Origin: Clostridiales bacterium
Lineage (GTDB): Bacteria > Bacillota > Clostridia > Oscillospirales > Oscillospiraceae
Assembly: GCA_021205695.1 (NCBI GenBank)
Contig: JAJPXB010000079.1
Location: 5,386-47,581 of the forward strand
Direction of reading: 5' to 3'
Length of the DNA stretch: 42,196 nt
The stretch's first letter is position 1; the number at the start of each line of letters is the position of its first letter. The notes under the pieces are model-generated. The model ran no database searches, was not told the DNA's origin, and saw nothing but the letters and a program-made list of their open reading frames with translations. Both the position numbers and the translations under genes were made by a program. This document shows positions 22,281 to 37,213 of this stretch, in pieces.

Positions 22281-22309
22281 TTGACCTTTTTCCCATAAAT
22301 CTATATAAT
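22281..22309 (+). promoter_or_regulatory. Promoter of the Mbh-type hydrogenase operon
   Basis: TTGACC (22281-22286), 17-base spacer, perfect TATAAT (22304-22309). The leader to ATG 22402 is about 85 bases and ends in a strong GGAGGAGG ribosome site (22389-22396). Confidence 0.9.
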
Positions 22310-22401: not shown

Positions 22402-23484
22402 ATGAGCTATACCATCCCCATCGGCCCCTATCATCCCGCATTGGAGGAACCAATCCACGCCCGCCTCACGGTGGACGGAGAGGAGATCACCGACGCAAGT
22501 GTGTTTGTGGGGTACAATCACCGGGGCATTGAGAAGCTGGCCCAGGAGCGGAATTTTATCCAGACCCTTGTGCTGGTGGAGCGGGTCTGCGGCATCTGCT
22601 CCCACTCCCATTCCCTGACCTATGCCATGTGCATCGAACACATTGCCGGGATGGAGGTTCCCAAGCGGGGACAGTATATCCGGGTCATCATCGAGGAGCT
22701 GGAGCGTATCCACTCCCATCTGCTGTGGCTGGGTATCGCCTGCCACATCGTGGGCCATGACAGTATGTTCATGCAGATCTGGAACGACCGGGAGCGTACT
22801 ATGGACACCCTGGAGGCCCTTACCGGCAACCGGGTGAACTATGCCATGAACACCATCGGCGGCGCCCGCCGGGATCTGGATGACGACAAGCGGCGACTTC
22901 TGCTGGAGGCCATGGATGACCTGGAGCAGAAGATGGGACCCATCACCCGGTTCCTCACCACGGACAAGACCCTGGCTATGCGTACCAAAGGGGTGGGCGT
23001 GCTCACCCATGAGGACGCTATCCGGCTGGGGGCTGCCGGCCCTCACGCCCGGGCCTCCGGAGTGGACGCCGACGTCCGCCGGGATGCCCCATACTCCTCC
23101 TATGAGGACTTTGAGTTCTCTGTCCCCGTCCAGCAGTCCTGCGACGTCTACGCCCGGGTGGTCATACGGGTGCAGGAGATCTACGAGAGCATCAAGATCA
23201 TCCGTCAGGCAGTGGACAATCTGCCGGAGGGCCCCATCAACCTGGGCAACAAGATCCCCAAGGTGCCTGCCGGAGAGTTTACCGCCCGGCATGAGGCGCC
23301 CCGCGGCCCTCTGGTCTATAAGGTGGTCACAGACGGCGGCCTCACCAACTACCGGCTGAGCCTCCACGTCCCCACCTTCCGCAACGCCCCCACCGTTCCC
23401 ACTATGCTCAGGGGAAATACTGTTGCCGACGCGGGGCTGATCGTGGCGTCCATCGATCCCTGCTTCTCCTGCCTGGACCGGTAA
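22402..23484 (+). CDS. Group 4 [NiFe] hydrogenase, catalytic large subunit (MbhL/NuoD-like)
   Basis: 360 residues. Carries the NiFe(CN)2CO site where protons are reduced to H2. Both Cys pairs are intact: RVCGIC (Cys63, Cys66, with His70 in SHSH) and DPCFSCLDR at the extreme C-terminus (Cys354, Cys357). The protein stops three residues after the last Cys, so there is no C-terminal peptide to remove. IEELERIHSHLLWLG and GGARRD resemble MbhL/EchE/NuoD. It is first in the operon, ahead of hypA and hypB, and far from the small subunit gene. I place it near Mbh (group 4d) from its Mrp partners; the exact subgroup needs a tree. Confidence 0.95.
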   Translation: MSYTIPIGPYHPALEEPIHARLTVDGEEITDASVFVGYNHRGIEKLAQERNFIQTLVLVERVCGICSHSHSLTYAMCIEHIAGMEVPKRGQYIRVIIEELERIHSHLLWLGIACHIVGHDSMFMQIWNDRERTMDTLEALTGNRVNYAMNTIGGARRDLDDDKRRLLLEAMDDLEQKMGPITRFLTTDKTLAMRTKGVGVLTHEDAIRLGAAGPHARASGVDADVRRDAPYSSYEDFEFSVPVQQSCDVYARVVIRVQEIYESIKIIRQAVDNLPEGPINLGNKIPKVPAGEFTARHEAPRGPLVYKVVTDGGLTNYRLSLHVPTFRNAPTVPTMLRGNTVADAGLIVASIDPCFSCLDR

Positions 23485-23485
23485 G

Positions 23486-23827
23486 ATGCACGAGCTGGCC
23501 ATCACCCAGAGCATCCTGGACATCGCCCAGACTGCCGCCCGGGAGCATCACGTCTCCCGCGTCCGTGAGGTGCGTATCAAGCTGGGAGAATACTGTGGGG
23601 TCGTTCCCCAATGCGTTCAGTATTATTTCGACGTCATCAGCAAGGGGACCGTCGCCGAGGGGGCGGTTCTGACCATGGAACGTCTCCCCATCCTCATGCG
23701 CTGCGAGGACTGCCGCTGGGAGGGACAGATGGACAAACGGCATATCGTCTGTCCCAGCTGCGGGAGCACCCACCTGAAGCTGCTTCAGGGCAGAGAATTT
23801 TATGTAGAGAGTTTGGAGGTAGATTAG
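23486..23827 (+). CDS. hypA: Hydrogenase nickel-insertion protein HypA
   Basis: 113 residues. Delivers nickel to the hydrogenase large subunit with HypB. It begins Met-His-Glu, the nickel-binding N-terminus needed by the family, and has the zinc site Cys73-x2-Cys76 and Cys89-x2-Cys92 (CEDC, CPSC). Its ATG is one base after the large-subunit stop, so the two are translationally linked. Its place inside the structural operon suggests it serves this enzyme. Confidence 0.97.
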   Translation: MHELAITQSILDIAQTAAREHHVSRVREVRIKLGEYCGVVPQCVQYYFDVISKGTVAEGAVLTMERLPILMRCEDCRWEGQMDKRHIVCPSCGSTHLKLLQGREFYVESLEVD

Positions 23828-23833
23828 AGCTTT

Positions 23834-24508
23834 ATGGAAATCAAGGTCATGCATCAGGTCATGGAGTGGAACGAGGATGTCAGCGACGCCGTCAAAGCGG
23901 AGCTGTCCTGCCATCAGGTGTGCCTGATCAACGTGCTGGGTTCTCCGGGGGCGGGAAAGACCAGCACCATTATCTCCCTGATCGACCGCCTCCGGTCAAA
24001 ATACCGGATCGGCGTCATCGAGGGGGACATCACCGGACAGATCGACGCAGATCGTATTCACGCCCTGGGGCTGCCGGTGGTTCAGCTGGATACCGACGGG
24101 GCCTGCCACATTGAGGCCATGAGCATTCAGCACATTCTGCCCCATTTTGACCTGGACAGCCTGGATGTGCTGTTTGTAGAGAACATCGGCAACCTGGTCT
24201 GCCCTGCTGAGTTTAACATCGGCGAGAACTTCCGTTTGGCCATCCTCAGCGTTCCCGAGGGGGACGACAAGGTGGAGAAATATCCCCTTATGTTCTCCAC
24301 CTCTCAGGCGCTGGCCATCAACAAGTATGATTTGAGAGATTACTTCGGCTTCGACGATGAACGGGTGGAGCATAGCGCCCGGGGAATCAATCCAGAGATC
24401 GTCCTCTTCCGCACCTCCAGCCGGGACGGGCTGGGACTGGACGAGCTGGCGGATTGGATCGACCACCGTATCGAGGCCACTCTGTCACCGGAAGATAAGG
24501 AGGGATAA
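23834..24508 (+). CDS. hypB: Hydrogenase nickel-insertion GTPase HypB
   Basis: 224 residues. SIMIBI-class GTPase that powers nickel delivery. P-loop GSPGAGKT (36-43); the metal site of the G domain is DGACHIEA (Cys91, His92); VENIGNLVCPAEF and LAINKYDL (G4-type NKxD) are also clear. The high-affinity N-terminal CxxCGC motif and the His-rich stretch of some HypBs are missing, so it is the short form. GGAGGT lies upstream of the ATG. Confidence 0.97.
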   Translation: MEIKVMHQVMEWNEDVSDAVKAELSCHQVCLINVLGSPGAGKTSTIISLIDRLRSKYRIGVIEGDITGQIDADRIHALGLPVVQLDTDGACHIEAMSIQHILPHFDLDSLDVLFVENIGNLVCPAEFNIGENFRLAILSVPEGDDKVEKYPLMFSTSQALAINKYDLRDYFGFDDERVEHSARGINPEIVLFRTSSRDGLGLDELADWIDHRIEATLSPEDKEG

Positions 24509-24510
24509 CA

Positions 24511-25047
24511 GTGGGAAAACCGTCGAAATTTGCCGTCTGGCTGTCCACCTTCCTGTTCTGTATGCTGTTCTGGCTGCTGCTTACCTGGTCGGTGGATCCG
24601 TTGGAGCTGATCCTTGGAGCAGTCGTCAGCGCCATTGTCGCCGCATTCTCCGGTCGGTTTCTCATCCACAACCGGGCGTTTTACCTGTATAATCCGGTGC
24701 GGCTGGTGATGCTGCTGGTTTATAATATCTTCATCTTTTTCTGGGAGATTATCAAAGCCAACGTAAACATGGCCCGCATTGTGCTCAGCCCCAACCTGGG
24801 GAACTATCAGGCGGGTATCATCCGTATCCCCGGCTCTCCGGATATCAAGAGCGATTACGGACAGGCCATGGTAAGCAACAGCATCACCCTGACGCCCGGC
24901 ACCATCACCATGGATGTGGCTGAGGACGAGGAGGGCCACACCTACTACTACGTTCACTGGATCAACGTGACCGAGACCGACCGGGAGAAGGCTGGCGAGG
25001 TCATCAAGGGCCGGATGGAGCGTTGGATCGGGAGGATTTGGAAATGA
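24511..25047 (+). CDS. mrpE: Mrp-type antiporter subunit MrpE (MbhA)
   Basis: 178 residues. Membrane subunit of the ion-translocating module. Two or three N-terminal helices (AVWLSTFLFCMLFWLLLTW; LELILGAVVSAIVAAF; LVMLLVYNIFIFFWEII) precede a cytoplasmic domain with the MrpE pattern VNMARIVLSP, GII and SNSITLTPGTITMDV. It starts with GTG 24511 behind AAGGAGG, two bases after hypB, and overlaps mrpF by ATGA. In Pyrococcus furiosus MBH the equivalent is MbhA. Confidence 0.94.
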   Translation: MGKPSKFAVWLSTFLFCMLFWLLLTWSVDPLELILGAVVSAIVAAFSGRFLIHNRAFYLYNPVRLVMLLVYNIFIFFWEIIKANVNMARIVLSPNLGNYQAGIIRIPGSPDIKSDYGQAMVSNSITLTPGTITMDVAEDEEGHTYYYVHWINVTETDREKAGEVIKGRMERWIGRIWK

Positions 25048-25298
25048 TTGAATTTTTGATTGCATCTATCATCTGTGTGATACTGGATCTGTTCCTGCTC
25101 TATCGCATTTTCAAAGGCCCCACCGCCGCCGACCGGATATGCGCCGCCGACAGTCTGGATCTGATGTCTGCACTGGCTCTTGCGCTGTACTCCCTGTATT
25201 CCGGCCGGGCCATTTACATGGACATCGCCCTGGTTGTCGCGCTGCTGGGCTTCATCGGCACGGTATTCGTAGCCCGCTATCTGGAGGGGAGAATCTAA
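25044..25298 (+). CDS. mrpF: Mrp-type antiporter subunit MrpF (MbhB)
   Basis: 84 residues with three membrane helices. The family segment YRIFKGPTAADRICAADSL is clear. I chose ATG 25044 because it shares ATGA with the mrpE stop and has GGAGG upstream; an earlier TTG at 25023 lacks a ribosome site. Part of the small E-F-G subcomplex at the end of the ion-pumping arm. Confidence 0.94.
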   Translation: MIEFLIASIICVILDLFLLYRIFKGPTAADRICAADSLDLMSALALALYSLYSGRAIYMDIALVVALLGFIGTVFVARYLEGRI

Positions 25299-25642
25299 TG
25301 GCTGTCAGAATCGTTGTGGATATCCTCCTGGCCATCGGGCTGTTTTTCCTGATTATAGGCACTCTGGGCTACATCCGTATGCCCGATGTGTTTGGCCGTC
25401 TCCAGGCCTCCACCTGCATCGCCACTCTGGGGACCATTGCGGTGGTTCTGGCCGGGATCGTCTATGCAGTGGTGGACGGCAGTGAGGTCATCGCCTATGT
25501 CAAGCTGGGACTGATCCTGGTTCTTATTATGGGAACCAACCCTGTGTCCAACCACGCCTTATGCAAGGCCGCCTACAAAATGGGCGTCAAGCCTGCCAAG
25601 GATCTGGTGATGGACGACTATAAGGAGGATGAGGTGGAATGA
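25298..25642 (+). CDS. mrpG: Mrp-type antiporter subunit MrpG (MbhC)
   Basis: 114 residues. Three helices with the MrpG pattern GTLGYIRMPDVFGRLQASTCIATLG and MGTNPVSNHALCKAAY (PhaG/MnhG family; first segment seen over residues 20-44). It starts at ATG 25298 in a TAATG overlap with mrpF; longer readings toward 25139 are in a frame inside mrpF. Completes the E-F-G trio. Confidence 0.94.
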   Translation: MAVRIVVDILLAIGLFFLIIGTLGYIRMPDVFGRLQASTCIATLGTIAVVLAGIVYAVVDGSEVIAYVKLGLILVLIMGTNPVSNHALCKAAYKMGVKPAKDLVMDDYKEDEVE

Positions 25643-25902
25643 ACGGAGTGCTTGTATTTATCCTCAACACCCTCGCCATCGTCGGAGCTGTAGCCGCTGC
25701 CGCTATCGCTGTTCACGCAGTCAGGCTGGTGGATTCGGTGATCGCTCTGGCCGCCACCGGCTCCTTTATCTCCCTGGAGTTCATTCTGCTCCAGGCCCCT
25801 GACGTGGCTATCGCAGAGGCCAGCGTGGGAGCGGTGCTGTCTACCATCCTGTTTATCATCGCTCTGCGGCGGGTCAACGCCCATAAGGAGGATCGAAAAT
25901 GA
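25639..25902 (+). CDS. Hydrogenase subunit MbhD (MrpA C-terminal, DUF4040)
   Basis: 87 residues, three helices. The DUF4040 core is visible: LVDSVIALAATGSFISLEF, then LLQAPDVAIAEASVGAVLS. This domain corresponds to part of the C-terminal portion of MrpA; in MBH it is a separate protein, as here, and contributes to a likely Na+ path. ATGA overlaps at both ends tie it to mrpG and mbhE. Confidence 0.93.
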   Translation: MNGVLVFILNTLAIVGAVAAAAIAVHAVRLVDSVIALAATGSFISLEFILLQAPDVAIAEASVGAVLSTILFIIALRRVNAHKEDRK

Positions 25903-26315
25903 AGCTGAAAAAGATCCTGTTTGCCGCCTCTCTGGCCGTCCTCATGGTCTGCGGCGTCTATGTGGCGGTGCTCATGGGAACCAGTGAGCCCACCTATGAC
26001 GGCTCAGATACCGACCTCCTGGCCCTATACGAAGACCCGGAATCTTACGACAACTCTGACGCTGACGGCGTAGCCGCCGTTATCGTCAACGAGAACCTGG
26101 ACAAGACCACTGCCCTGAATGTGGTGTTCAGCGTCGTCTTTAACTTCCGGGGCTATGACACCATGGGCGAGAGCTTTATCCTCATCGCCGCCATTGCGGG
26201 CTGCCTGGTCATTCTCCGCAAGGCGGCAAAGTCTGTCCCAGTCCCTGCACCGGAGACTGATGGTGGTGCGAAAAGTGAGACAGAAGAGACAGAAAAGGAG
26301 GGAGATTGCGAATGA
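25899..26315 (+). CDS. Hydrogenase subunit MbhE
   Basis: 138 residues. An N-terminal helix, an acidic outer loop (about residues 28-65) and a second helix after the family motif VVFNFRGYDTMGE, which matches MbhE/MrpA C-terminal proteins (fDfRGxDTxGE type). A charged Glu/Thr-rich tail ends the protein. ATGA overlaps with mbhD and mrpB. The outer loop seems long but a family alignment would be needed to judge this. Confidence 0.9.
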   Translation: MKLKKILFAASLAVLMVCGVYVAVLMGTSEPTYDGSDTDLLALYEDPESYDNSDADGVAAVIVNENLDKTTALNVVFSVVFNFRGYDTMGESFILIAAIAGCLVILRKAAKSVPVPAPETDGGAKSETEETEKEGDCE

Positions 26316-26800
26316 CACCGGAAACCAGTAAGCCGAAAATCCGCCGGAAGGATGTGATCGTCCGCTGTGCTGCGGATGTGTTCCTGCCCCTGGCCTGTAT
26401 GTTTGGCTGCTATGTGGTATTCCATGGCAGCTCCAGTCCGGGAGGCGGCTTCCAGGGCGGCGTGCTCATCGCCAGCGCCATCCTGCTGGTCTTTCTGGGC
26501 CATGGCGGCAGCCAGGTGAAGGACTCCTTCAGTTCCCGACTGCTCCACAGCAGCGAGACGATTGCGGAAATCATGTACGTGGTCATCGCTCTTCTGGGTA
26601 TTTTTACCGGGCTGAATTTCTGCTTCAACTTCGTCTTTGCCGGATATGAGATGGAGACCAGTCTCCTGATGAATGATGCGGTGGGCTACCACGTCATGGC
26701 GGGTATCGCCCGCCTGCTCATCCTTATGCTGGGCACTCTGGATCCGGAGGACGAGAGCGGCGATGTGCCCTCTGACGGAAAGGAGGATGTCTCCAAATGA
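26312..26800 (+). CDS. mrpB: Mrp-type antiporter subunit MrpB (MbhF)
   Basis: 162 residues, four helices. The MrpB signature FHGSSSPGGGFQGGVLIASA is clear (residues about 36-55), as are ETIAEIMYVVIALLG-like segments. ATG 26312 shares ATGA with the mbhE stop behind AAAAGGAGGG; a TTG two codons earlier is less likely. A short charged C-terminal tail runs into mrpC, again with ATGA. Confidence 0.94.
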   Translation: MTPETSKPKIRRKDVIVRCAADVFLPLACMFGCYVVFHGSSSPGGGFQGGVLIASAILLVFLGHGGSQVKDSFSSRLLHSSETIAEIMYVVIALLGIFTGLNFCFNFVFAGYEMETSLLMNDAVGYHVMAGIARLLILMLGTLDPEDESGDVPSDGKEDVSK

Positions 26801-27147
26801 TGATCGTAAACTACATTGGGGCCTTTGCCCTGATCGTACTGGGCATTTACTGCATGGTGGTCAAACACAACCTTATCAAGGTGGTCATCGGCATCGGCCT
26901 GGTGGACTACGGCGCCAACCTGCTGATCGTCTCGGCGGGCTTCAACGACGGCGGAACCGCCCCCATCTTTAACCTGGAGGAGCTGACCCGGTCCAGCTTC
27001 TTCGTGGACCCGGTGCCCCAGGCCCTGACGCTGACCTCTATCGTCATCGGCGCCTGCACCACTGCCATGAGCCTATGCCTGGTCATTATGCTCCATGAGC
27101 AGTACGGCACTCTGGACACCCGTAAGATCAGGAGGTTGAACGGCTGA
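26797..27147 (+). CDS. mrpC: Mrp-type antiporter subunit MrpC (MbhG, NuoK-like)
   Basis: 116 residues with three helices. NuoK/MrpC features: NLIKVVIGIGLVDYGANLL and the near-invariant VDPVPQALTLTSIVIG. It couples the NuoH-like and antiporter-like parts of the arm in related complexes. Two adjacent ATGs (26797, 26800) could both start it. It overlaps mrpD by one base. Confidence 0.95.
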   Translation: MMIVNYIGAFALIVLGIYCMVVKHNLIKVVIGIGLVDYGANLLIVSAGFNDGGTAPIFNLEELTRSSFFVDPVPQALTLTSIVIGACTTAMSLCLVIMLHEQYGTLDTRKIRRLNG

Positions 27148-29081
27148 TGGAAAACCTTCCGATTCTTGCTATTATGACCCTGTTTGTGGGCGCTTTCGTT
27201 GCCTCCCTGGTGGGCCGCCGCAATGCGGTGGTGCGCAATGTGGTGGTGACGATCGCTGTCACCGTCCCCCTGGTCATGATGCTTTGCCTCATTCCAACCG
27301 TCTTTGTCAACGGGGAGACCATCGTCTACTGGCTGGGCAACTGGGAGCCGGAGGCCGATTGGGCCATCGGTATCTGCCTGGAGGTGGACGCTCTGAGCCT
27401 GTTCTTCGGCCTGATCGTCACCGTGGCGGTCTTTGTCTCTGGGCTATACTCCTTTACCTACATGAACCACGATGACAGCCTGGTGAACTATTACACCCTG
27501 TTTCTCATGCTCTCCGGCTCGGTGCTGGGCCTGGTGCTCTCCGGCGACCTGTTCAACATCTTCGTCATGGTGGAGATTATGACCTTTACCGCCGTGGCCC
27601 TTACCGCCTTCCGCAACACCTATGAGGGCGCGCTGGAGGGAGCGTTCAAGTATCTGGCGGTAGGCTCTCTCGGCTCCACCTGCGTTCTGTTGGGCGTCGC
27701 CATGCTCTACTCTCAGCTTCACACGCTGAATCTGGCCCAGGTCTCCGCCCTGCTCTCCAGCCAGGGGACCAACCCCGTGACCATAGCCGCCTTCGCCTTC
27801 CTGTTTATCGGCTTTGGCAGCAAGGCGTTCCTGTTCCCCTTCCAGCCCCTGGCGGCGGACGCCCATGCTGTGGCCCCTGCCTCCATCTCTCTGATGATCT
27901 CTGGCGTGCTGACCAAGTGTGGCGTCTACGGCATTATCCGTCTGGTCTACATCCTCTACCAGAACTATGATCAGCCCATCGTTCAGTATCTGGTCACCGG
28001 CTTCGGGGCGATTAGTATGTTCGTCTGCGTCACCATGGCCTTCAATCAGCACAATTTCAAGCGGCTGCTGGCCTTCCACTCCATCTCTCAGGTGGGGTAT
28101 GTCATCACTGCCGTGGGCCTGGGTTCCATCCTGGGAGTCGGCGCCGGACTGTATCACGCCATGAACCACACCATTTTTAAGGGTCTGCTCTTCCTTACCG
28201 CCGGCGCTGTTCAGCACCAGACCGGGAGCCTTGACCTGGACCGCCTGGGAGGGCTGGGCAAGCGGATGCCAAAGACCTGTCTGCTGTTTCTCATCGGCGC
28301 CGCCTCCATCAGCGGCCTGCCTCCCTTTAATGGCTTCGCCTCAAAGTGGATGATTTATCAGGCTGCGTTTCTCCACGGCGTCACCACCGGAAATTTCTAC
28401 TTCATCTTCATCTGTATTGTCGCCCTTATCACCAGTGTCCTGACCCTGGCCTCCTTCATCAAGGTGGCGCAGAGCGTCTTCTTCGGCCAGCTGCCGGAGG
28501 AGTACAAGGACGTAAAAGAGGTTCCCCTCACCATGCGGCTTCCCATGTGGATTCTGGCGATCCTCTGCATCCTCACCGGACTGTTCCCGGACTTCATTCA
28601 GGAGAAAATCCTGACTCCTGCGGTAAATGCGGTCTTTAATGTGGTGGGCTACGTCGATACCGCCATGGGCTCCGGCTATGCCGCCTCCAATGGCGTCACC
28701 GCAGCGGGCATCGAGGGCATCGCCGTCACCGGCACCTGGTCCCCTACCTCCTGGCTGATGCTGCTGTTCTGCATCACCTGCGCTGTGGCTATCGTGTTCC
28801 TCCTGGCCAGCCCAGACGACAAGCAGAAGGGCAGCCTCCCGGTCTCCTCCGCCGACGAGACCGCGCAGGCGCTGGATGCCAAGTACGAGCCGTTCTTCTC
28901 CGGTGAGGAGGCTGTCTATTCCCAGGTGGGCGGCAGCGACCTGTTCTGGGGCTTCAAGCACAACTGGCGGCGTTACTTCCACTTTATGCACAACTGGCAC
29001 AGCGGCATTGTCAACGATTACGCCCTCTATGGAGCGGTGGCCATCGCCTTTGTCCTGCTGTTCTGTATCGTGCTGCTGTAA
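27147..29081 (+). CDS. mrpD: Antiporter-like subunit MrpD/MbhH with MbhI-like C-terminal extension
   Basis: 644 residues; MrpD proteins are usually near 500. The first 490 residues are the 14-helix antiporter core: MVEIMTFTAVALTAF (key Glu), GAFKYLAVGSLGS (key Lys), FGSKAFLFPFQPLAADAHA, and HAMNHTIFKGLLFLTAGAV. The extra 150 residues hold a helix (WLMLLFCITCAVAIVFLLA), a loop with a DLFWGFKHNWRRYF segment, and a last helix after HSGIVNDYALYG. That last part resembles the C-terminal elements of NuoL/MrpA and the separate MbhI protein of archaeal MBH, suggesting a fusion (inference). Likely main ion-translocating subunit. Followed 15 bases later by the NuoH-like gene. Confidence 0.92.
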   Translation: MENLPILAIMTLFVGAFVASLVGRRNAVVRNVVVTIAVTVPLVMMLCLIPTVFVNGETIVYWLGNWEPEADWAIGICLEVDALSLFFGLIVTVAVFVSGLYSFTYMNHDDSLVNYYTLFLMLSGSVLGLVLSGDLFNIFVMVEIMTFTAVALTAFRNTYEGALEGAFKYLAVGSLGSTCVLLGVAMLYSQLHTLNLAQVSALLSSQGTNPVTIAAFAFLFIGFGSKAFLFPFQPLAADAHAVAPASISLMISGVLTKCGVYGIIRLVYILYQNYDQPIVQYLVTGFGAISMFVCVTMAFNQHNFKRLLAFHSISQVGYVITAVGLGSILGVGAGLYHAMNHTIFKGLLFLTAGAVQHQTGSLDLDRLGGLGKRMPKTCLLFLIGAASISGLPPFNGFASKWMIYQAAFLHGVTTGNFYFIFICIVALITSVLTLASFIKVAQSVFFGQLPEEYKDVKEVPLTMRLPMWILAILCILTGLFPDFIQEKILTPAVNAVFNVVGYVDTAMGSGYAASNGVTAAGIEGIAVTGTWSPTSWLMLLFCITCAVAIVFLLASPDDKQKGSLPVSSADETAQALDAKYEPFFSGEEAVYSQVGGSDLFWGFKHNWRRYFHFMHNWHSGIVNDYALYGAVAIAFVLLFCIVLL

Positions 29082-29096
29082 AGGAGGCGGGATACG

Positions 29097-30071
29097 ATGA
29101 ACGATTTATTGCTCAACCTGTTCTATGTACTGGTCTTTCCCGGTCTTCTGTTTTGTATCCTTATGGGCGTCCTTCTCTCCGGCCTAGATCGGGTTTGGGT
29201 GGCCCGGATGCAGCGGCGGGTAGGCCCTCCCCTGCTCCAGCCCTGGTATGATTTTCTGAAATGCTGCGGCAAGGAGACCATCGTTCCCCGTCACGCCAAA
29301 AAGGCGGTCTATTTCGCCGCCCCGGTGATCGGTTTTGTCGCACTGATGACCATCTCGCTATTTCTCCCGGTGGTCAACGGAAGCGCCGCCTTCTCCGGTA
29401 CGGCCGATTTGGTAGTCATTCTCTATCTGCTCACCCTGGTCAGCGTATGCATGATGGTGGGCGCCTCCGCCACTGGCTCCCCCTTTGCCGGGGTGGGCCT
29501 GAGCCGGGAGATGGTCGCCATGATCTCCTATGAGCTTCCCTTCGTCTTGGTTATTCTGGCGGTCAGCCGGGCGACCCTGTCCTATGACGCCGGAACCGGT
29601 ATGCCCCTGACCTTCTCCCTGCAGGCCATTATGGATTATCAGGAGTCCTACGGTCCCCTCATCACCCATTGGAGCCTGATCCCCGCCGCCATCGCCATGC
29701 TGTTTGTCATCCCCTGTGAGGTGGGGATGCACCCCTTTGACGTGTCCGAGGCGGAGACAGAAATCTGCGAGGGCACGCTGGCGGAGTACAGCGGGCCTCC
29801 CCTGGCGGTTTACAAGCTGACCCACATGGTCAAAATGTACATTATGACCGCTCTGTTCTGCGTTCTCTTCCTGGGAGGGCTCACCACCGGCATTCTCTTT
29901 TTTGACGTGGTGATCTTCGTCCTGGTCTGCGCCCTGCTGACCTTCGTCACCATGAGCCTGCCCCACGCGGCCTGCGCCCGGTTCAAGACGGAACAGGTGT
30001 TCAAATTCTACTGGACCGTGGTGGCCGGTCTCGCCGCCATCAGCCTGATTTTGGTCTGGCTGGGGCTTTGA
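29097..30071 (+). CDS. Membrane anchor subunit MbhM (NuoH/EchB-like)
   Basis: 324 residues, about eight helices. It links the catalytic arm to the membrane arm. NuoH hallmarks are present: RRVGPPLLQPWYDFLK near residue 40, and the acidic loop FDVSEAETEICEGTLAEYSG, whose Glu residues are needed for proton or sodium coupling in complex I relatives. AAGGAGG precedes the ATG. Followed by the NuoB-like small subunit. Confidence 0.95.
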   Translation: MNDLLLNLFYVLVFPGLLFCILMGVLLSGLDRVWVARMQRRVGPPLLQPWYDFLKCCGKETIVPRHAKKAVYFAAPVIGFVALMTISLFLPVVNGSAAFSGTADLVVILYLLTLVSVCMMVGASATGSPFAGVGLSREMVAMISYELPFVLVILAVSRATLSYDAGTGMPLTFSLQAIMDYQESYGPLITHWSLIPAAIAMLFVIPCEVGMHPFDVSEAETEICEGTLAEYSGPPLAVYKLTHMVKMYIMTALFCVLFLGGLTTGILFFDVVIFVLVCALLTFVTMSLPHAACARFKTEQVFKFYWTVVAGLAAISLILVWLGL

Positions 30072-30083
30072 GGAGGGGTATCT

Positions 30084-30530
30084 ATGTTTGAAAAAATGAT
30101 TGATAACAGCATGGCAAAAAGCCCCTGGATATTCCACATCAACGCCGGCTCCTGCAACGGCTGCGACATCGAGCTGGTGAGCGTGCTGACCCCCCGATAC
30201 GATGCAGAGCGGCTTGGCTTCAAGCTCACCGGAACGCCCCGGCAGGCGGATATCGTTGTGGTCAGCGGTCCCATCACCGTTCAGACCCGTGACCGCCTCG
30301 TCCGTACGCTGGCGCAGGTCCCGGAGCCCCGGGTGGTGGTCAGCCTCGGCTCCTGTCCCCGCTCCGGCAACGTGTTCAAGGGCAGCTATGCCATCGACGG
30401 CCCCCTGGAGAAATACACCCATGTGGACGTCTCCGTAGGCGGCTGTACCCCGAAGCCGGAGGCCATCATGGCAGCCCTGGCCCAGGCCGCCCAGATCCTG
30501 GCGGAAAAGAGAAAGGAGATGCGCAAGTAA
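30084..30530 (+). CDS. [NiFe] hydrogenase small subunit (MbhJ/NuoB-like)
   Basis: 148 residues. Holds the single [4Fe-4S] cluster that hands electrons to the NiFe site. Its four ligands are Cys24 and Cys27 (GSCNGCDIE), Cys91 (LGSCPRSG) and Cys121 (GGCTPKPE), the group 4/NuoB arrangement. No membrane helix or Tat signal, as expected for a cytoplasm-facing group 4 enzyme. Ends in a TAATG overlap with the ferredoxin-like gene. Confidence 0.96.
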   Translation: MFEKMIDNSMAKSPWIFHINAGSCNGCDIELVSVLTPRYDAERLGFKLTGTPRQADIVVVSGPITVQTRDRLVRTLAQVPEPRVVVSLGSCPRSGNVFKGSYAIDGPLEKYTHVDVSVGGCTPKPEAIMAALAQAAQILAEKRKEMRK

Positions 30531-31030
30531 TGCTTCCCTATCTCACCAAGGCGGTGTCCAACCTGTTTCACAAGCCCAGCACGGAGAAATTTCCCGCCGG
30601 AGACCCGCCCAAGGCCCCGGATGGCTATCGGGGCCGCATCAGCTATGACCCGGAAAAGTGCGTCAACTGCGGCATGTGTATCCGGGTCTGCGCTCCTCAG
30701 TGCATGGAGCGAACCATTGAAAAGCTGGAAAACGGCGATCAGCGGATCACCTTTACCTTTGATATGACCAGCTGCACCTTCTGCTCCATGTGCGCCGATT
30801 TCTGCGCCCGCCATGCCATCACCCTCACCGACGACTATATGATCGTGGGGACCAAGCCGGAGGATTTTCTGGTGACCGGATCCTTTGTCAAAAAAGCGCC
30901 GCCTCCCAAGCCCAAGCTGACCCCGGAGCAGATCGCTGAGATGAAGGCCAAGGCGGAGGCCGCGAAAAAGGCAAAGGCGGAAGCTGCCGCCAAAGCCGCC
31001 GCCGCAGCGGCTTCAGCCGACAATGGCTGA
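30530..31030 (+). CDS. Two-cluster ferredoxin-like subunit (MbhN/NuoI-like)
   Basis: 166 residues. Two complete [4Fe-4S] motifs: Cys44, 47, 50, 54 (CVNCGMCIRVC) and Cys82, 85, 88, 92 (CTFCSMCADFC). It probably takes electrons from reduced ferredoxin. Typical clusters lack the usual Cys-Pro right after the fourth Cys. From residue about 121 there is an unusual Pro-Lys then Ala/Lys/Glu-rich tail of some 45 residues, probably a charged helix. It overlaps hypF by eight bases. Confidence 0.94.
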   Translation: MLPYLTKAVSNLFHKPSTEKFPAGDPPKAPDGYRGRISYDPEKCVNCGMCIRVCAPQCMERTIEKLENGDQRITFTFDMTSCTFCSMCADFCARHAITLTDDYMIVGTKPEDFLVTGSFVKKAPPPKPKLTPEQIAEMKAKAEAAKKAKAEAAAKAAAAAASADNG

Positions 31031-33293
31031 ACGTTTCCGTATTCACTTTGAAATTGAGGGCATCGTACAGGGGGTCGGCTTTCGTCCCTTTCTCCACCGA
31101 CTGGCTCTGAAATGGGACATCTCCGGCTGGTGCCGGAACACTGTCTTTGGCGTGGAGCTGGAGGTCGAGGGAACAGAGGCGTCACTGAGCCGATTCCGAG
31201 CCGGACTGTGGGAGGAGCTTCCTCCTCTGGCCAGGATAGATGCCGTTCGGGAGACGCCCTGCCCTGCCCCTCTTGGGGCGAACGGCTTTCAAATCCGGGA
31301 GAGCCGCCGTGAGGGGCATCCGGACGCCCTCATCAGCCCGGATATCGCCACCTGTCCGGACTGTCTTCGGGAGCTTCGCGACCCGAAGGACAGGCGGTAT
31401 CGCTATCCCTTTCTCAACTGTACCAACTGCGGCCCCCGGTTCACCATTGTCAGGGAACTGCCCTATGACCGCAGGGCCACCTCTATGTCCAAATTTCCCA
31501 TGTGCCCGGACTGTGAGACGGAGTATGGGGACATCCGGAGCCGCCGGTACCACGCTCAGCCGAACTGCTGCCCGGACTGCGGCCCCACCCTGACCTTTTC
31601 CCTGCCAGGGGAAGCTCCCGCAACAGACGACCCAATCGGCCAGGCGTCGGCTCTGCTCCGGGCCGGAAAAATCGTCGCCGTCAAGGGGCTGGGGGGCTAT
31701 CACCTGGCCTGCCGGTGCGACCTGCCGGAGACGGTGGCCGAACTGCGCCGGCGGAAGCGGCGGGATGAGCGCCCCTTTGCCCTCATGTGCCGGGATATCC
31801 CGACGGCGGAGACGCTTTGCCATGTATCCCCTCAGGAGGCCGCACGGCTTACCAGTCCCCGCGCCCCCATCGTTCTGCTCCGCAAGCGGCCCAATGCCCC
31901 CTCCGGGCTCAGCGAGACGGGTGAGCTCGGGGTGATGCTTCCCTATACGCCCCTTCACCATCTGCTGATGGAGGAATTTGACGCCCTGGTTATGACCAGT
32001 ATGAACGTCTCAGACCTCCCAACCCTCTGCGAGCTGCATGAGGGTAACGAGGCGCTGGCGGACGGGGTCCTGTCCCACAATCGGGACATCGTCAACCGCT
32101 GTGACGACTCTCTCCTTCGGGTATTCCGGGGGACTGATCTGTTTTTCCGCAGGAGTCGGGGCTATGTCCCGGAGCCGGTACGGCTCGCTTTCGACTGCAC
32201 CGGCATCCTGGCCTGCGGCGCTGAACAGAAGGGCAGCTTCGCCCTTTCCAGAGGACAGTATGCCTTCCTGGGTCAGCACATCGGAGACCTGAAAAACTTT
32301 GATACCTTCGATTTTTATCGACAGCAGATCAGCCGGTTCGAGGATCGGTTTGGCGTGGCGGTAAACCGGCTGGTCTGCGACCTTCATCCGGACTACCTCT
32401 CCTCTGAATACGCCCGGGAACGGAGCCGCCGGGAGGGCCTTCCCCTGACGCTGGTGCAGCATCACCACGCCCATATGGCTGCCTGTATGGCGGACAATGG
32501 CCTGGAGGGATCCTGTATTGGCCTGATTTGGGACGGTACCGGCTATGGAACAGACGGGACGATCTGGGGGGCGGAATGTCTCACCGGGGGCTATACCGGC
32601 TTTCAGCGCCGGGGCACCATACGGCCCATCCTGTTGCCGGGTGGCGATGTGTGTACCTCGGAGATCGGCCGGATTTCATTCAGCCTCATGTGGGACGCAG
32701 GCGTACTCCCCCGGGAGAAAGCAGGCAGCCCTCTGGCCCGGATGCTGGAAAATGATGTGAATTGCCCCAGGGCCACCAGCATGGGGCGGCTGTTTGACGG
32801 GGTGTACGCTCTGCTGTTCGGACGGGAAACTGTCACCTATGACGGGCAGGGAGCCGTTCTGCTGGAGGCAAATGCCGCCGGGGACGAGACAGGGGCCTAT
32901 CCCGTGACCTGCTACCGCTCGGACGGCTTGACCGTGTGGGATATCCGGCCACTGGTGAAATTGCTCCTGGCAGAATCCAGGGCCGGGACTGCTCCCGACC
33001 GGCTGGCCGCCCGGTTTATGAACACGCTGGTATCCCTGGCCCTGGCCCACTGCCGGGCTGCTCGGGAGGAGACCGGACTGGAACGGGTCGTTCTCTCCGG
33101 GGGGGTATTCCAGAACGGCTATCTGCTGCCCAGGGTGGTGGATGCTCTGGCGGCGGACGGATTCCAGGTCTACAATCAAACCTGCGTCTCCCCCAACGAC
33201 CAGGGCATCGCCCTGGGGCAGACGCTGATCGCTGCAAAAGGAGGCGGCATATCTGATGTGCCTTGCCGTACCACTGAAACTGACAAAAATTGA
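31023..33293 (+). CDS. hypF: Carbamoyltransferase HypF
   Basis: 756 residues. Uses carbamoyl phosphate and ATP to make the thiocarbamate on HypE, the source of the cyanide ligands. Domains in order: acylphosphatase (GIVQGVGFRPFLHRLAL), two zinc fingers (CPDCLREL ... CTNCGPRFT; CPDCETEYG ... CCPDCGPTL), YrdC-like (KIVAVKGLGGYHLACRC) and Kae1-like with VQHHHAHMAAC and IWDGTGYGTDG. Length is standard. It overlaps mbhN by 8 bases and hypC by 38. Confidence 0.97.
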   Translation: MAERFRIHFEIEGIVQGVGFRPFLHRLALKWDISGWCRNTVFGVELEVEGTEASLSRFRAGLWEELPPLARIDAVRETPCPAPLGANGFQIRESRREGHPDALISPDIATCPDCLRELRDPKDRRYRYPFLNCTNCGPRFTIVRELPYDRRATSMSKFPMCPDCETEYGDIRSRRYHAQPNCCPDCGPTLTFSLPGEAPATDDPIGQASALLRAGKIVAVKGLGGYHLACRCDLPETVAELRRRKRRDERPFALMCRDIPTAETLCHVSPQEAARLTSPRAPIVLLRKRPNAPSGLSETGELGVMLPYTPLHHLLMEEFDALVMTSMNVSDLPTLCELHEGNEALADGVLSHNRDIVNRCDDSLLRVFRGTDLFFRRSRGYVPEPVRLAFDCTGILACGAEQKGSFALSRGQYAFLGQHIGDLKNFDTFDFYRQQISRFEDRFGVAVNRLVCDLHPDYLSSEYARERSRREGLPLTLVQHHHAHMAACMADNGLEGSCIGLIWDGTGYGTDGTIWGAECLTGGYTGFQRRGTIRPILLPGGDVCTSEIGRISFSLMWDAGVLPREKAGSPLARMLENDVNCPRATSMGRLFDGVYALLFGRETVTYDGQGAVLLEANAAGDETGAYPVTCYRSDGLTVWDIRPLVKLLLAESRAGTAPDRLAARFMNTLVSLALAHCRAAREETGLERVVLSGGVFQNGYLLPRVVDALAADGFQVYNQTCVSPNDQGIALGQTLIAAKGGGISDVPCRTTETDKN

Positions 33294-33474
33294 CGGCAAC
33301 GACGCTGTGGGCGAGCTGGAGGGCATCCAGCGGCGCATTCGCGTGGATTTTTTGAAAAATCCTCAGCCGGGAGACTACGTCATTGCCCACGCCGGGTTCG
33401 CCATTGAAAAGCTGAACGAGCAGCAGGCCCTGGAAAATCTCCAGGCCCTTCGGGATGTCGCAGATGCTCTCTGA
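33256..33474 (+). CDS. hypC: Hydrogenase assembly chaperone HypC
   Basis: 72 residues. It begins MCLAVPLKL, with the essential Cys2 that binds the Fe(CN)2CO unit on HypD and passes it to the large subunit. Standard length, OB-like beta core (IRVDFLKNPQPGDYVIAHAG). The first 38 bases overlap hypF, and its end overlaps hypD. Confidence 0.96.
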   Translation: MCLAVPLKLTKIDGNDAVGELEGIQRRIRVDFLKNPQPGDYVIAHAGFAIEKLNEQQALENLQALRDVADAL

Positions 33475-34567
33475 AACAGATTTTCGCCGTCTCCCCGGCT
33501 CTGACCGGCTCCTCCGGGCCATCCGGGAGATGGAGCTGCCGGAGGTCCGGCTGATGGAGGTATGCGGAACCCACACCATGGCCATCGCCCAGGCCGGACT
33601 GAAGCAGCTCCTCCCGCCCCGGATTCACCTGCTCTCCGGGCCGGGGTGCCCGGTCTGCGTCACCCCAGCCGGGATGATGGATGAAATTCTGCGCCTCAGC
33701 GGGACGCCCGGTCTCATCCTGACCACCTACGGCGACCTGATGCGTGTCCCCGGTTCCGACCCGGAGGACAGTCTGCAACGGCGCAAGGCCATGGGTGCGG
33801 ATATCCGTTGGGTCTACTCCCCCATGGACAGCCTGGATATTGCCCGGGAAAACCCGGAGCGGCAAGTGGTCTTTCTGGGGGTGGGCTTTGAAACCACCGC
33901 ACCCGGCACGGCTCTGACCGTGCTGGAGGCCCGGCGGCGGGAACTGGACAACTTCTCCCTGCTCTGCCTGTTGAAGCAGACGCCTCCCGCCCTCCGGGCG
34001 CTCATCGACCAGCCGGGATTTCAGGTGGACGGCTTTCTCTGCCCCGGCCATGTGGCTACCATCGTAGGGGCGGAGGCCTTCCGCTTTTTGCCGGAGGAGT
34101 ACGGTCTCCCCGCCGTGGTCTCCGGCTTTGAGGCGGGAGATCTGCTGGTTTCGCTGTACAAGCTGCTCTGTCAGATACGGGATGGCGCGCCGACGCTGGA
34201 AAATGAGTACACCCGCGCCGTCTCCCCTCAGGGGAACCGGGCGGCTCAGACATTGATGTCTCAGGTTCTGGAGCCGACGGACGACCTCTGGCGGGGGCTG
34301 GGCGACATCCCGGCCAGTGGGCTTCGCCTGCGGAGCGAATTTCGGGATTACGACGCTGCCCGTCGCTTTCCCTTCTCCCCTGCTCCCAGGACGGAACTGC
34401 CCAGCTGCCGGTGCGGACAGATTATCTGCGGACAGCTCTCTCCGGCAGACTGTCCCCTCTTTGGGAAACGCTGTCAGCCGGAGCACCCTGTGGGGCCGTG
34501 CATGGTTTCCAGCGAGGGGGCCTGTGCGGCGGCCTATAAGTATGGAGGGATAGACGAGCGTTTATGA
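33455..34567 (+). CDS. hypD: Fe(CN)2CO assembly protein HypD
   Basis: 370 residues. Scaffold where the iron gets its CN and CO ligands. Conserved motifs: EVCGTHTMAI, GPGCPVCVTP (redox Cys pair), FLGVGFETTAP, CPGHVATIVG, and the C-terminal [4Fe-4S] Cys region (CRCGQIICG; DCPLFGKRC; GPCMVSSEGAC). The first ATG, 33455, overlaps hypC; a second ATG three codons later is also possible. ATGA links it to hypE. Confidence 0.97.
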   Translation: MSQMLSETDFRRLPGSDRLLRAIREMELPEVRLMEVCGTHTMAIAQAGLKQLLPPRIHLLSGPGCPVCVTPAGMMDEILRLSGTPGLILTTYGDLMRVPGSDPEDSLQRRKAMGADIRWVYSPMDSLDIARENPERQVVFLGVGFETTAPGTALTVLEARRRELDNFSLLCLLKQTPPALRALIDQPGFQVDGFLCPGHVATIVGAEAFRFLPEEYGLPAVVSGFEAGDLLVSLYKLLCQIRDGAPTLENEYTRAVSPQGNRAAQTLMSQVLEPTDDLWRGLGDIPASGLRLRSEFRDYDAARRFPFSPAPRTELPSCRCGQIICGQLSPADCPLFGKRCQPEHPVGPCMVSSEGACAAAYKYGGIDERL

Positions 34568-35565
34568 ATCAGGACATTATCACGTTGGATCACGGCAGCG
34601 GCGGGAAATGCACCGCACAGCTCATCGAGGAGCTGCTGCTCCCCGCCTTTCACAACGAAGCCCTCAACGCATTGGGAGATGGGGCGGTGCTGGAGCTCTC
34701 CGGGCCGCTGGTGTTCTCCACGGACAGCTTTGTGGTAGACCCGATTTTTTTCCCGGGCGGGGACATCGGCAAGCTGGCCGTCTGTGGTACAGTGAACGAT
34801 CTCGCCATGTGCGGCGGCATTCCCCGGTATCTCAGCCTGTCCCTGCTCATTGAGGAGGGATTTCCACTGGCTGATCTCCGCCGGGTGGTAGACTCCATCG
34901 CCAGAACCGCAGAAGAGGCTGGGGTGGAGATCGTCACCGGCGACACCAAGGTGGTGGAGCGGGGCAAGGGGGACGGAATTTATATCAATACGGCGGGCAT
35001 CGGCGCCCTGGCCTGGCCCGGCCTGTCGCCGGATGAAATACGGGTGGGAGACGAGGTGATTGTCTCCGGCTCCATCGGGGACCACGGAGCTGCCGTCATG
35101 ATGGCCCGAAACGGGCTGTTGGAGGGCAGCACCCTCTCCTCTGATTGCCGCCCCCTCCACGCCCTGGCTGGGGCCGCTCTGGCGTGCGGAGGGGTTCGGG
35201 TGCTTCGGGACCCCACCCGGGGCGGCGTGGCCACCACACTCAACGAGTTTGCGCAGAACCGGCCCTTTTCCATTGAGCTGGAGGAGGACTCCCTCCCAGT
35301 CAACGCCCCGACAGCCGCCGCCTGTGGCCTCCTGGGGCTGGATCCGCTGTACTGCGCCAACGAGGGCAAGCTGCTGGCGGTGGTAGAAGCCGGACACTCG
35401 GATGCGGTGCTGAAGGCGCTGCGCTCTGCTCCCGGCGGCGAACAGGCCGCCCGGATAGGGCGGGTCACCTCCCGTGCTCCCGGCAAAGTGATTTTGAATA
35501 CCTTCCTGGGCGGCGGCCGGGTGCTCTCCATGCTCACCGGCGCACAGCTCCCCAGAATATGCTAA
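34564..35565 (+). CDS. hypE: Carbamoyl dehydratase HypE
   Basis: 333 residues. Turns the carbamoyl group received from HypF into thiocyanate with ATP. PurM/AIRS-like fold with LDHGSGGKCTAQLIEE, VCGTVNDLAMCGG and RDPTRGGVATTLNE. It ends Pro-Arg-Ile-Cys, the C-terminal Cys that carries the ligand. ATG is in an ATGA overlap with hypD. Last of the Hyp set, just before the NuoC-like gene. Confidence 0.97.
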   Translation: MNQDIITLDHGSGGKCTAQLIEELLLPAFHNEALNALGDGAVLELSGPLVFSTDSFVVDPIFFPGGDIGKLAVCGTVNDLAMCGGIPRYLSLSLLIEEGFPLADLRRVVDSIARTAEEAGVEIVTGDTKVVERGKGDGIYINTAGIGALAWPGLSPDEIRVGDEVIVSGSIGDHGAAVMMARNGLLEGSTLSSDCRPLHALAGAALACGGVRVLRDPTRGGVATTLNEFAQNRPFSIELEEDSLPVNAPTAAACGLLGLDPLYCANEGKLLAVVEAGHSDAVLKALRSAPGGEQAARIGRVTSRAPGKVILNTFLGGGRVLSMLTGAQLPRIC

Positions 35566-35578
35566 AGGCGGTGTTTTT

Positions 35579-35962
35579 ATGCAGACGAATACGAAAATTT
35601 CTATCACAAAGGACGAGATCGTTCCCACAGCTGAGAAGATGCGGGCCGATGGCCGGACGCTGGTCATGATCCACGGCCATCTGGACAAGGAAGGCAGACC
35701 GGTCATCAGCTACGACTACTCTCTGGGGCCAGAGCTGGTCTGCTATGAGGTGGTAGGAGAGGATACCGTCCCCTCTATCGCATCCATCTATTCCGCTGCC
35801 GCTGAGTGGCCGGAGCGGGAGATCAACGAGCTGCTGGGCTTCACCTTCGAGGGGTTGGATACCAGCGAGCGACTGTTCCTCCCGGACAGCATGCTGGAGG
35901 GCAAGGGACAGATCATCGTCACCCCCATCAACGTGCTCAAGGAGAAAAATGGACTGCTGTAA
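35579..35962 (+). CDS. NuoC/MbhK-like 30-kDa-type hydrogenase subunit
   Basis: 127 residues, shorter than most NuoC and MbhK proteins. The C-terminal half has the NuoC signature: AAEWPEREINELLGFTFEG then RLFLPDSMLEG. The N-terminal half (VMIHGHLDKEGRPVISYDYS) fits the alpha/beta core. It normally packs against the large and NuoI-like subunits, so it is expected in this complex. It is last in the operon, after the maturation genes, rather than beside the large and small subunits. An AAAGGCGGTG ribosome site is 5 bases upstream, and a terminator follows. Confidence 0.9.
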   Translation: MQTNTKISITKDEIVPTAEKMRADGRTLVMIHGHLDKEGRPVISYDYSLGPELVCYEVVGEDTVPSIASIYSAAAEWPEREINELLGFTFEGLDTSERLFLPDSMLEGKGQIIVTPINVLKEKNGLL

Positions 35963-36031: not shown

Positions 36032-36064
36032 CCCCCATTTCCGATATAGTAAAGGAAATGGGGG
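36032..36064 (+). terminator. Terminator of the hydrogenase operon
   Basis: Perfect 11-base inverted repeat (36032-36042 with 36054-36064, CCCCCATTTCC/GGAAATGGGGG) with an 11-base loop, followed by a T-rich run. A smaller 7-base hairpin (GCTGCAG/CTGCAGC) lies upstream near 35981-36002. Confidence 0.85.
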
Positions 36065-36223: not shown

Positions 36224-37210
36224 TCACACTACCCGCAGAGGACATTCCCGCCCGTCAAAGAACTGACGGGCGGCCTCCAGAGAGTTGCGCACCATGTCGT
36301 CGGCAGCGCTCTCCGTCCAGAAGGCCAGATGAGGGGTCATAATGACGTTTGGCATGGCGTTGAGGATGGCCATGTCGTGGTTCCCGATGACCTGATTGCA
36401 GTGATCCAGGTAATAAACCGAGCGGTCCCCGTCAAATACGTCCAGAGCGGCCCCTGCCAGATGTCCGGACTCCAGGGCCTGGATGAGGGCGGCGCTGTCC
36501 ACCAGGTCGCCCCGGGCGGTGTTGATCAGATAGGCGCCCTGTTTCATCTGCCCCATGGTTTCCCCATTCAGCAGATAGCGGGTCTCCGGAGCGGAGGACA
36601 GGTGGAGGGACACCAGGTCGCTCCCTGCCAGCAGCGTCTCCAGGGAGACATACTGAACGATGCCCGCCAGCTCGGGCCGCCGGTGGCGGCTCCAGGCCAG
36701 CATACGGCAGCCAAAGGCGGCAAATCGGCGGGCGGCCAGACTCCCGATGCTCCCAGTTCCCAGGATGCCCACCGTCATGGTGTGCAGCTCCCTGCCCAGG
36801 AACGGCTCAAATCGGTAGTCCTGCCCCTGATTGCGCAGGAGGGCAGCCTTGGTGTGCCGGGTGACCATGAGGGCCAGCATGACTGTATAATCCGCCACAC
36901 TGGAGGCGGAATAGGTGTTCCGTGTGACGGCCATTCCCACCTGTCTGGCGTGGGCCAGATCGATGTTGTCCACCCCGATGGGCCGTGCATTGATGAGGCG
37001 CGCCCCGCCCGCCTGGTAGACGTCGATCATCCCGGCGGTGATCTGCCGGGCGGCTGCAATGGCGACGGCGTCATAGCCCTGGGCCAGCGCAGCGTTTTCC
37101 GGCAGGGGGCGCTCCGCTGTACAGGTCACCTGAAAGCCAAACTCCGGGCCGAACCGGGCATAGCGCTCCACCTCCTCCGGCCCACAGGAATAGGCAAACA
37201 TTCGCTCCAT
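36224..37210 (-). CDS. D-2-hydroxyacid dehydrogenase, D-lactate dehydrogenase/VanH-like
   Basis: 328 residues. Probably reduces a 2-oxo acid such as pyruvate with NADH. NAD motif VGILGTGSIGSLAARR (about 147-162). The catalytic set is Arg233 (INTARGDLVDS), His294 (TPHLAFWTE) and, where the family has Glu, Asp262 (LDVFDGDRS). The C-terminal layout, with a long segment between DVFDGD and PNVIMTPH, matches D-LDH/VanH rather than glycerate dehydrogenases. GGAGGAA precedes ATG 37210, inside the end of the upstream regulator gene. A VanH role is unlikely without vanA/vanX neighbours. Could be an NADH sink alongside hydrogen formation. Confidence 0.9.
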   Translation of the reverse strand: MERMFAYSCGPEEVERYARFGPEFGFQVTCTAERPLPENAALAQGYDAVAIAAARQITAGMIDVYQAGGARLINARPIGVDNIDLAHARQVGMAVTRNTYSASSVADYTVMLALMVTRHTKAALLRNQGQDYRFEPFLGRELHTMTVGILGTGSIGSLAARRFAAFGCRMLAWSRHRRPELAGIVQYVSLETLLAGSDLVSLHLSSAPETRYLLNGETMGQMKQGAYLINTARGDLVDSAALIQALESGHLAGAALDVFDGDRSVYYLDHCNQVIGNHDMAILNAMPNVIMTPHLAFWTESAADDMVRNSLEAARQFFDGRECPLRVV

Positions 37211-37213
37211 CTG

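Follow-up and report, generated by a model that had tools for sequence, protein, structure and literature searches.

Membrane-bound hydrogenases (MBH) of the [NiFe] type that are linked to an Mrp-like ion module are a kind of machine known from heat-loving archaea. Clostridial hydrogenases with an Mrp link have been described before: the cited passage of one report gives an archaeal 4g-5 subgroup a Na+ module too, in another gene order (PMC7886697), and in that of another a possible Mrp-Mbh complex was reported from Saganbacteria, with Pelobacter and Clostridia the closest to it (PMC6349859). For the rumen, the energy-converting classes named in the cited part of a survey are 4a, 4c, 4e, 4f and 4g, with 4d missing from the list, and the 4g enzymes of rumen Clostridium are described there as functionally unresolved, with RNA/DNA ratios >10 (PMC6776011); a study of 62 rumen butyrivibrio genomes sought MbhLKJ and found none (PMC4478896). 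Here we describe such a system in a window of 42,196 nucleotides (the whole stretch analysed, contig 71, positions 5386-47581) from a Clostridiales bacterium of the Oscillospiraceae, whose genome comprises 82 contigs, 2,236,337 bases, and is 99.74% complete. A block of 19 genes at 22402-35962 would encode a self-sufficient, membrane-bound, Mrp-linked [NiFe] hydrogenase that forms H2 from reduced ferredoxin and exports ions, a reading to which, taken whole, we assign a probability of about 0.78. A literature search of titles and abstracts found no work on the clade to which it belongs.

The initial annotation of this DNA, made from the letters and reading frames, had described 19 tightly spaced genes in one direction, and this is borne out: all reading frames are open on the + strand, and neighbouring genes are set between a 38-base overlap and a 15-base gap. 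Each of the 19 products is matched by Pfam, MbhE alone falling below its cut-off (25.9 vs 27 bits). Translations indicate ATG codons at 25044, 25298 and 26312 as the likeliest starts of the MrpF-, MrpG- and MrpB-like genes, small corrections to the earlier starts. Since the block is conserved in relatives, chance is excluded as its cause. The gene order, from L to K, is as follows:

22281..22309, + strand: promoter-like site TTGACC-17-TATAAT, 11/12 consensus positions (consensus match only)
22402..23484, + strand: MbhL, [NiFe] large (catalytic) subunit, 360 aa, with RVCGIC and DPCFSC Ni ligands and C-terminus DPCFSCLDR (Pfam, structure match)
23486..23827, + strand: HypA, Ni metallochaperone (Pfam)
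23834..24508, + strand: HypB, Ni-insertion GTPase (Pfam, CobW/HypB/UreG family)
24511..25047, + strand: MbhA, MrpE-like (Pfam)
25044..25298, + strand: MbhB, MrpF-like; alternative start TTG 25023 (Pfam, translation)
25298..25642, + strand: MbhC, MrpG-like (Pfam, translation)
25639..25902, + strand: MbhD (Pfam)
25899..26315, + strand: MbhE, putative (Pfam below cut-off; conserved position)
26312..26800, + strand: MbhF, MrpB-like (Pfam, translation)
26797..27147, + strand: MbhG, MrpC-like (Pfam)
27147..29081, + strand: MbhH-MbhI fusion, 644 aa, MrpD-like antiporter at residues 1-510 and MbhI at ~529-641 (structure match, profile, model)
29097..30071, + strand: MbhM, NuoH-like (Pfam, structure match)
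30084..30530, + strand: MbhJ, small subunit, NuoB-like (Pfam, structure match)
30530..31030, + strand: MbhN, electron-entry subunit, two [4Fe-4S] motifs and an Ala/Lys-rich tail (Pfam, motif count)
31023..33293, + strand: HypF, carbamoyltransferase (Pfam)
33256..33474, + strand: HypC (Pfam)
33455..34567, + strand: HypD (Pfam)
34564..35565, + strand: HypE (AIR synthase-related families; named by position)
35579..35962, + strand: MbhK, NuoC-like (Pfam; weak structure match)
36032..36064, + strand: terminator-like hairpin, perfect 11-bp stem (stem search)

The products include the parts that define a group 4 enzyme: homologues of the complex I-like NuoB, C, D, H and I are present as J, K, L, M and N (Pfam), MbhL keeps both Ni-ligand pairs, an N-terminal CxxC and a C-terminal DPCxxC, and the Mrp-type module is represented by MrpE, F, G, B, C and D together with MbhD and MbhE, the latter recognised by its conserved position. 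The core hydrogenase and the six Hyp proteins named by the initial annotation are thus in place. A search against solved structures, covering L, H, the I part, J, M and K, returned the Pyrococcus furiosus MBH (PDB 6cfw) as best match throughout: 298.6 bits for MbhL (HycE, 283.7), 300.4 for MbhH, 158.3 for MbhJ (HycG, 106.1), 140.4 for MbhM and, weakly, E 0.0039 for MbhK (6cfw_K). The idea that MbhI is missing was rejected: residues past 510 of the 644-aa H protein match chain I of 6cfw (E 3.7e-5; next match 0.11), and positions 534-642 of the H-I profile are covered in alignment by the separate 113-aa I of an operon in archaeal gene order (L144), which itself matches 6cfw_I at E 9e-13. All 27 relatives listed have the I-like end; their lengths, 617-658 aa, depend in part on the start chosen. 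Modelled with AlphaFold from 26 sequences (mean confidence, pLDDT, 80.8), H-I matches MrpD and 6cfw_H, and its C-terminal end consists of two helices (533-553 and 623-643) parted by a low-confidence stretch. Residues E143, K226, K257 and K400, which we take to fit the usual roles in antiporter-type channels, do not vary among 26 members. With MbhH and MbhI joined in a single gene, all 14 subunits of the P. furiosus MBH are accounted for among the predicted products of the block.

The search of relatives that the initial annotation had proposed found the conserved block well beyond this genome. With one genome per species, the scan gave at least 583 tblastn-confirmed stretches; the best 80 of these, 59-98% identical over MbhL, make up with the window the clade considered here, and with such numbers the idea that the block is unique or rare was dropped. 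Their records are named Oscillospiraceae, Lachnospiraceae, metagenome-assembled genomes of other Clostridia and Clostridium isolates, rumen-labelled records included; Pseudoflavonifractor sp. An44 (L010) is an example of a carrier in culture. Genes A to E occur in 78/81 loci, F in 77, G in 75 and H-I in 72, a fall that runs towards contig ends, and hypB was found in just 31/81. Two main layouts recur: L first and K last, as in the window, or hypF-C-D-E-K ahead of L. Within the GTDB family, MbhL has a match in 31/250 genomes, at ≥69% identity in 23; the window's genus, with nine genomes, has this type in five, a 39-40% identical type in three and neither in the last. Across the phylum, 223/398 genomes match MbhL at E 1e-3, a count that includes other group 4 and Nuo-like proteins, and two genomes only reach ≥55% identity. 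Judged from these records, the window-type hydrogenase is common in gut Clostridia.

The large subunit of this clade has an unusual end. The C-terminal Ni motif lies in the best frame of 80/81 loci (the best frame of L073 is without it), and in all 80 MbhL terminates at the motif with no C-terminal peptide, the last residue being R or H in 74 and another in 6; RxCGICxxSH is matched in 77 of the 80, some frames being cut by contig ends. Tails of 32 and 39 residues are carried by two MBHs of archaeal gene order from the same phylum (L144 and L168), of 29-45 residues by 10/10 three-antiporter operons and of 32-33 by 3/3 Hyf types; they are absent from Azospirillum enzymes (3/3), a triple-antiporter type (2/2) and Ech-like loci with the motif (25/25). 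The peptidase HycI (PF01750), sought in 33 chosen genomes, had no match in 23 carriers of the window-type hydrogenase, the window's own genome among them, nor in five Ech-like carriers (G127 and G223 classed so by identity alone); it had matches in 2/2 archaeal-order MBH genomes, adjoining the operon there, and in 2/3 further genomes with other hydrogenase-like matches. The pairing of peptide and HycI is thus seen in both same-phylum MBHs, and is not known as a requirement of class 4d. The large subunit would then be made without a C-terminal peptide and close without a HycI-type peptidase, by a route that we can only infer. In the cited sentence of a 2025 review, groups 2b, 2d, 4c and 4e are listed without the peptide and 4d does not appear (PMC12134894); the missing peptide and peptidase would extend that list of cleavage-free enzymes to an Mrp-linked type.

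Do these differences set apart a lineage or decorate an otherwise typical group 4d MBH, possibly of archaeal origin, in which the lost peptide and the fused H-I are minor changes? The subunits are those of 6cfw, as the latter explanation expects. In the large-subunit tree (81 sequences, 358 columns), however, the window clade is monophyletic for 31/31 rows at support 100/99, the canonical MBHs (P. furiosus, L144, L168) form a separate group (98/94), and the window clade pairs with the Azospirillum enzymes (98/83); Ech-like enzymes form a clade of their own (100/100), with the window clade outside it. A tree constrained to unite the window clade with MBH is worse by 12.1 log units, and the approximately unbiased (AU) test does not reject this single clade at 0.05 (p 0.069); a constraint uniting window, Azospirillum and MBH gives AU p 0.178, and against a poorer quick tree the forced window-MBH tree is the better one (AU p 0.687). 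The J and M trees, quick ones, are weakly resolved at depth, and in the H tree the window protein stands next to MBH H at a low support of 52. The idea of a chimera, in which an MBH membrane arm bears a catalytic module of non-MBH origin, was not kept: the L tree leans towards it and the H tree puts H by MBH, but the AU test does not reject common descent of L. Given the separate clades and the absence from the window type of both the tail and the peptidase found with L144 and L168, we regard an ordinary 4d enzyme as unlikely. The Mbh-type assignment of the initial annotation therefore holds for construction (L, H, I, J, M and, weakly, K), while the phylogeny it had suggested as a check yields a clade apart whose union with P. 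furiosus MBH stands at that same AU value: the complex appears built like MBH, its sisterhood with the P. furiosus type being neither shown nor rejected. Features that the initial annotation did not mention are the H-I fusion, the lack of peptide and peptidase, the wide occurrence in gut Clostridia and the absence of an Rnf match in this genome. Because the rumen survey lists no 4d and Clostridium and rumen records sit in the clade, HydDB group 4g is a likely label for it.

How the complex would work we infer from homology with MBH, as regards electron donor, direction of H2 turnover and coupling ion alike. Reduced ferredoxin, supplied by PFOR and by electron-bifurcating Bcd-Etf in the course of butyrate formation, would most likely deliver electrons to MbhN, from where MbhJ would relay them to the NiFe site of MbhL for the reduction of protons to H2; the redox energy would drive ion export, with Na+ as the probable ion if P. 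furiosus MBH is a guide, through the Mrp-like membrane arm (A-G, H-I, M), and HypA-F would build the NiFe cofactor. The genome holds a PFOR-type gene (1216-aa open frame) and four ETF matches in two pairs. The enzyme could instead run mainly in reverse, taking up H2 to reduce ferredoxin at the expense of the ion gradient. The gut is rich in H2, which counts in favour of that direction. HydDB also calls Ech-type relatives physiologically reversible, in the passage cited (PMC5037454). Ferredoxin should nevertheless be in surplus in a butyrate-forming cell equipped with PFOR and Etf, and neither RnfC nor RnfA/D/E, markers of the usual outlet for it, had a match in this genome, so that we find uptake improbable. 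Slightly less probable still is that a partner enzyme using formate, CO or an aldehyde supplies the electrons in place of free ferredoxin, as in groups 4a, 4b and 4c or the Azospirillum relatives: an aldehyde ferredoxin oxidoreductase does lie beside the hydrogenase in 2/3 Azospirillum stretches (the third being too short to tell), yet no formate dehydrogenase, CO dehydrogenase or aldehyde ferredoxin oxidoreductase family was found in the block or in 10 flanking frames, the rest of the genome not having been searched for these.

Several points weigh against our preferred reading of a ferredoxin-driven, ion-exporting MBH-like complex. The similarity of MbhE and MbhK is weak, MbhL fits HycE nearly as well as the 6cfw subunit, and the L tree does not join the window clade with P. 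furiosus MBH. The genome also encodes an [FeFe] hydrogenase (523-aa open frame), which we take to be of group B, and because of it the window hydrogenase is not the only H2 route; as the genome is in 82 contigs, absence of Rnf and HycI means that they were not found in a 99.74% complete assembly. The rotary ATPases of the genome, on C44 (L088) and C6 (L090), carry mixed signatures of the coupling ion, the V-type ring being Na+-like and the F-type ring H+-like. The V-type K subunit is best matched by the Na+ V-ATPase of Enterococcus hirae and keeps PGTQ and the C-terminal Glu, which suggests a Na+ user; the F-type c subunit, which carries a long N-terminal stretch, aligns best with cyanobacterial and chloroplast rings, presumably H+ rings, with Met replacing their Gln. 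This resemblance would fit H+ coupling, and we consider Na+ the more likely ion.

Absence of Rnf is more frequent among carriers than among other genomes of the family. RnfA/D/E is absent from 8/23 carriers and from 20/227 other genomes of the family (Fisher p 0.0014), and both markers are absent from 6/23 and 8/227, respectively (p 0.0006), in tallies made by hand from listings over genomes that are not independent, three of the six Rnf-less carriers belonging to one genus. Mutual exclusion of hydrogenase and Rnf was considered and set aside: the pattern is an enrichment only, and most carriers have Rnf. In genus g45, three carriers (G045, G096, G132) are without both markers; the five non-carriers comprise four with both and G227, with RnfC alone.

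MbhN is the part of the complex that varies most conspicuously in size. In 71 examined genes (68 complete; four loci counted twice under two identifiers), the 68 complete ones hold two [4Fe-4S] motifs in 33 cases, four in 19, six in 8, eight in 7 and ten in one; the eight- and ten-motif genes are those of L029, L031, L038, L063, L066, L080, L162 and L164, L080 and L164 being one locus. The extra units, up to four, are two-cluster ferredoxin domains joined directly or through Ala/Pro/Lys linkers, and a model of the eight-cluster array of L029 shows four better-scored stretches parted by pLDDT <50 (mean 70.2; predicted template modelling score 0.36). Motif number differs even among close relatives: parsimony on a quick tree of 64 large subunits, with 23/61 inner branches open and two genes cut by contig ends, counts 15 changes of motif number and 3 of array presence, one of the latter due to the cut gene of L050. 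Arrays follow layout, all 33 array loci being of the hyp/K-first type, to which 14 two-motif loci also belong, and loci with the window's layout having two motifs in 17/17 cases. Outside the clade, counting MbhN-like genes with ≥2 motifs found near L, two motifs are the rule in Azospirillum (3/3), 4a (3/3), Nuo-like (11/11), triple-antiporter (2/2), MBH (2/2), three-antiporter (8/8, of 10 loci) and Ech-like types (24/26), the Ech-like exceptions, G030 and G090 of the same family, having eight each. The eight-motif ferredoxin subunits in Ech-like operons of this family (L146, 10512-11564; L147, 10347-11510) apparently arose independently. That arrays go with Rnf was also considered, since 0/6 Rnf-less and 10/17 other carriers have arrays (p 0.019, with kinship left uncorrected); seven carriers of the two-cluster form possess one or both Rnf markers, and a two-cluster gene (G247) and a four-cluster gene (G092) in the comparison are cut by contig ends.

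From these patterns we advance a tentative and more specific proposal, which we think possible but would not yet bet on: that gut Clostridia possess a separate Mrp-linked lineage with cleavage-free maturation, in which MbhN is a growing wire of tandem two-cluster domains, many of them on flexible Ala/Pro/Lys linkers, that are gained and lost repeatedly (2-10 clusters) and, as tethered ferredoxins, take electrons directly from PFOR and Etf and set the electron capacity of the pump, the window representing the short two-cluster form in a cell where it would be the sole ferredoxin-driven ion pump found. The relatives' arrays of 2, 4, 6, 8 and 10 clusters would in any case offer a natural series on the role of tethered ferredoxin.

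The surroundings of the block bear on its expression and origin. Promoter-like sites number 2 on both strands of the region, vs 0.7 in shuffles, and the one ahead of MbhL agrees with the single promoter that had been proposed; a terminator pattern scan had no match, and a single terminator is plausible because a separate stem search found the hairpin listed above, with an 11-base loop and followed by TGTATATTTCTTT. No Rfam family matched at its gathering threshold in window positions 15000-42196, and among the matches listed in an NCBIfam search with 10/19 proteins no family reached its cut-off. Upstream of the block, at 19981-22009, lie a phosphate acetyl/butyryltransferase and an acetate-kinase-family gene, which by position and recall we take to be Ptb/Buk and which support the description of the organism as a butyrate-forming clostridium. 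The suggestion that the unit is transferable draws weak support from its patchy presence within genera and from the flank, buk and ptb lying upstream in 1/11 related places with ~10 kb of upstream sequence (12 loci), and no mobile-element family was found in the 10 flanking frames scanned. GC content is 60.3% in the operon, 57.7% in the left and 58.5% in the right flank. Downstream, convergent with the operon, a D-2-hydroxyacid dehydrogenase gene (36224-37528, - strand) adjoins a TM1266-like gene, a putative regulator of an iron-only hydrogenase system.

For the predicted ion-pumping hydrogenases of gut and rumen Clostridia, which plausibly are the unresolved 4g enzymes reported there, the block supplies a complete subunit plan. 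Its product may contribute to intestinal H2 and to the ATP gain of a butyrate-forming cell without detected Rnf; with HypA-F in the same block it would also make a handy cassette for heterologous expression.

Set beside known systems, the predicted complex is closest in plan to the P. furiosus MBH (6cfw, HydDB 4d), with which it shares the 14 represented subunits, the Ni ligands, the Mrp arm and a two-cluster entry subunit, and from which it differs in the fusion of H and I, the missing C-terminal peptide, the lack of a detected HycI, a large-subunit clade of its own and another gene order with hyp genes inside, the archaeal order being the one that we assume for P. furiosus. The archaeal-order MBHs (L144 in G271, L168 in G549) share its phylum and a full Mrp module but run from A to N, with tails, HycI beside each operon and, in L144, a separate I. 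HydDB 4g, a loose class, has in common with it the Clostridium and rumen-labelled records of the window clade. Ech (4e) is ferredoxin-linked and likewise lacks the C-terminal peptide, but has no Mrp A-G genes by profile and forms its own clade. The group 4 enzymes of Azospirillum (L091, L092, L097) are 46-49% identical to the window MbhL, tailless and its neighbours in the tree, whereas L091 and L092 have two antiporter-like genes, no Mrp A-G and an adjoining aldehyde ferredoxin oxidoreductase; on these two plasmids a MoaD-like gene also lies beside the hydrogenase. A further arrangement occurs in L138 (12530-16390, - strand) and L139 (681-4547, + strand), where one frame of ~1287 aa fuses antiporter-like modules, read as three, ahead of MbhM, J, N, K and L, with no Mrp A-G found. 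Against the archaeal type, then, the predicted clostridial complex is marked by three structural departures: (i), a fused H-I subunit; (ii), a large subunit without C-terminal peptide; (iii), hyp genes placed within a new gene order.

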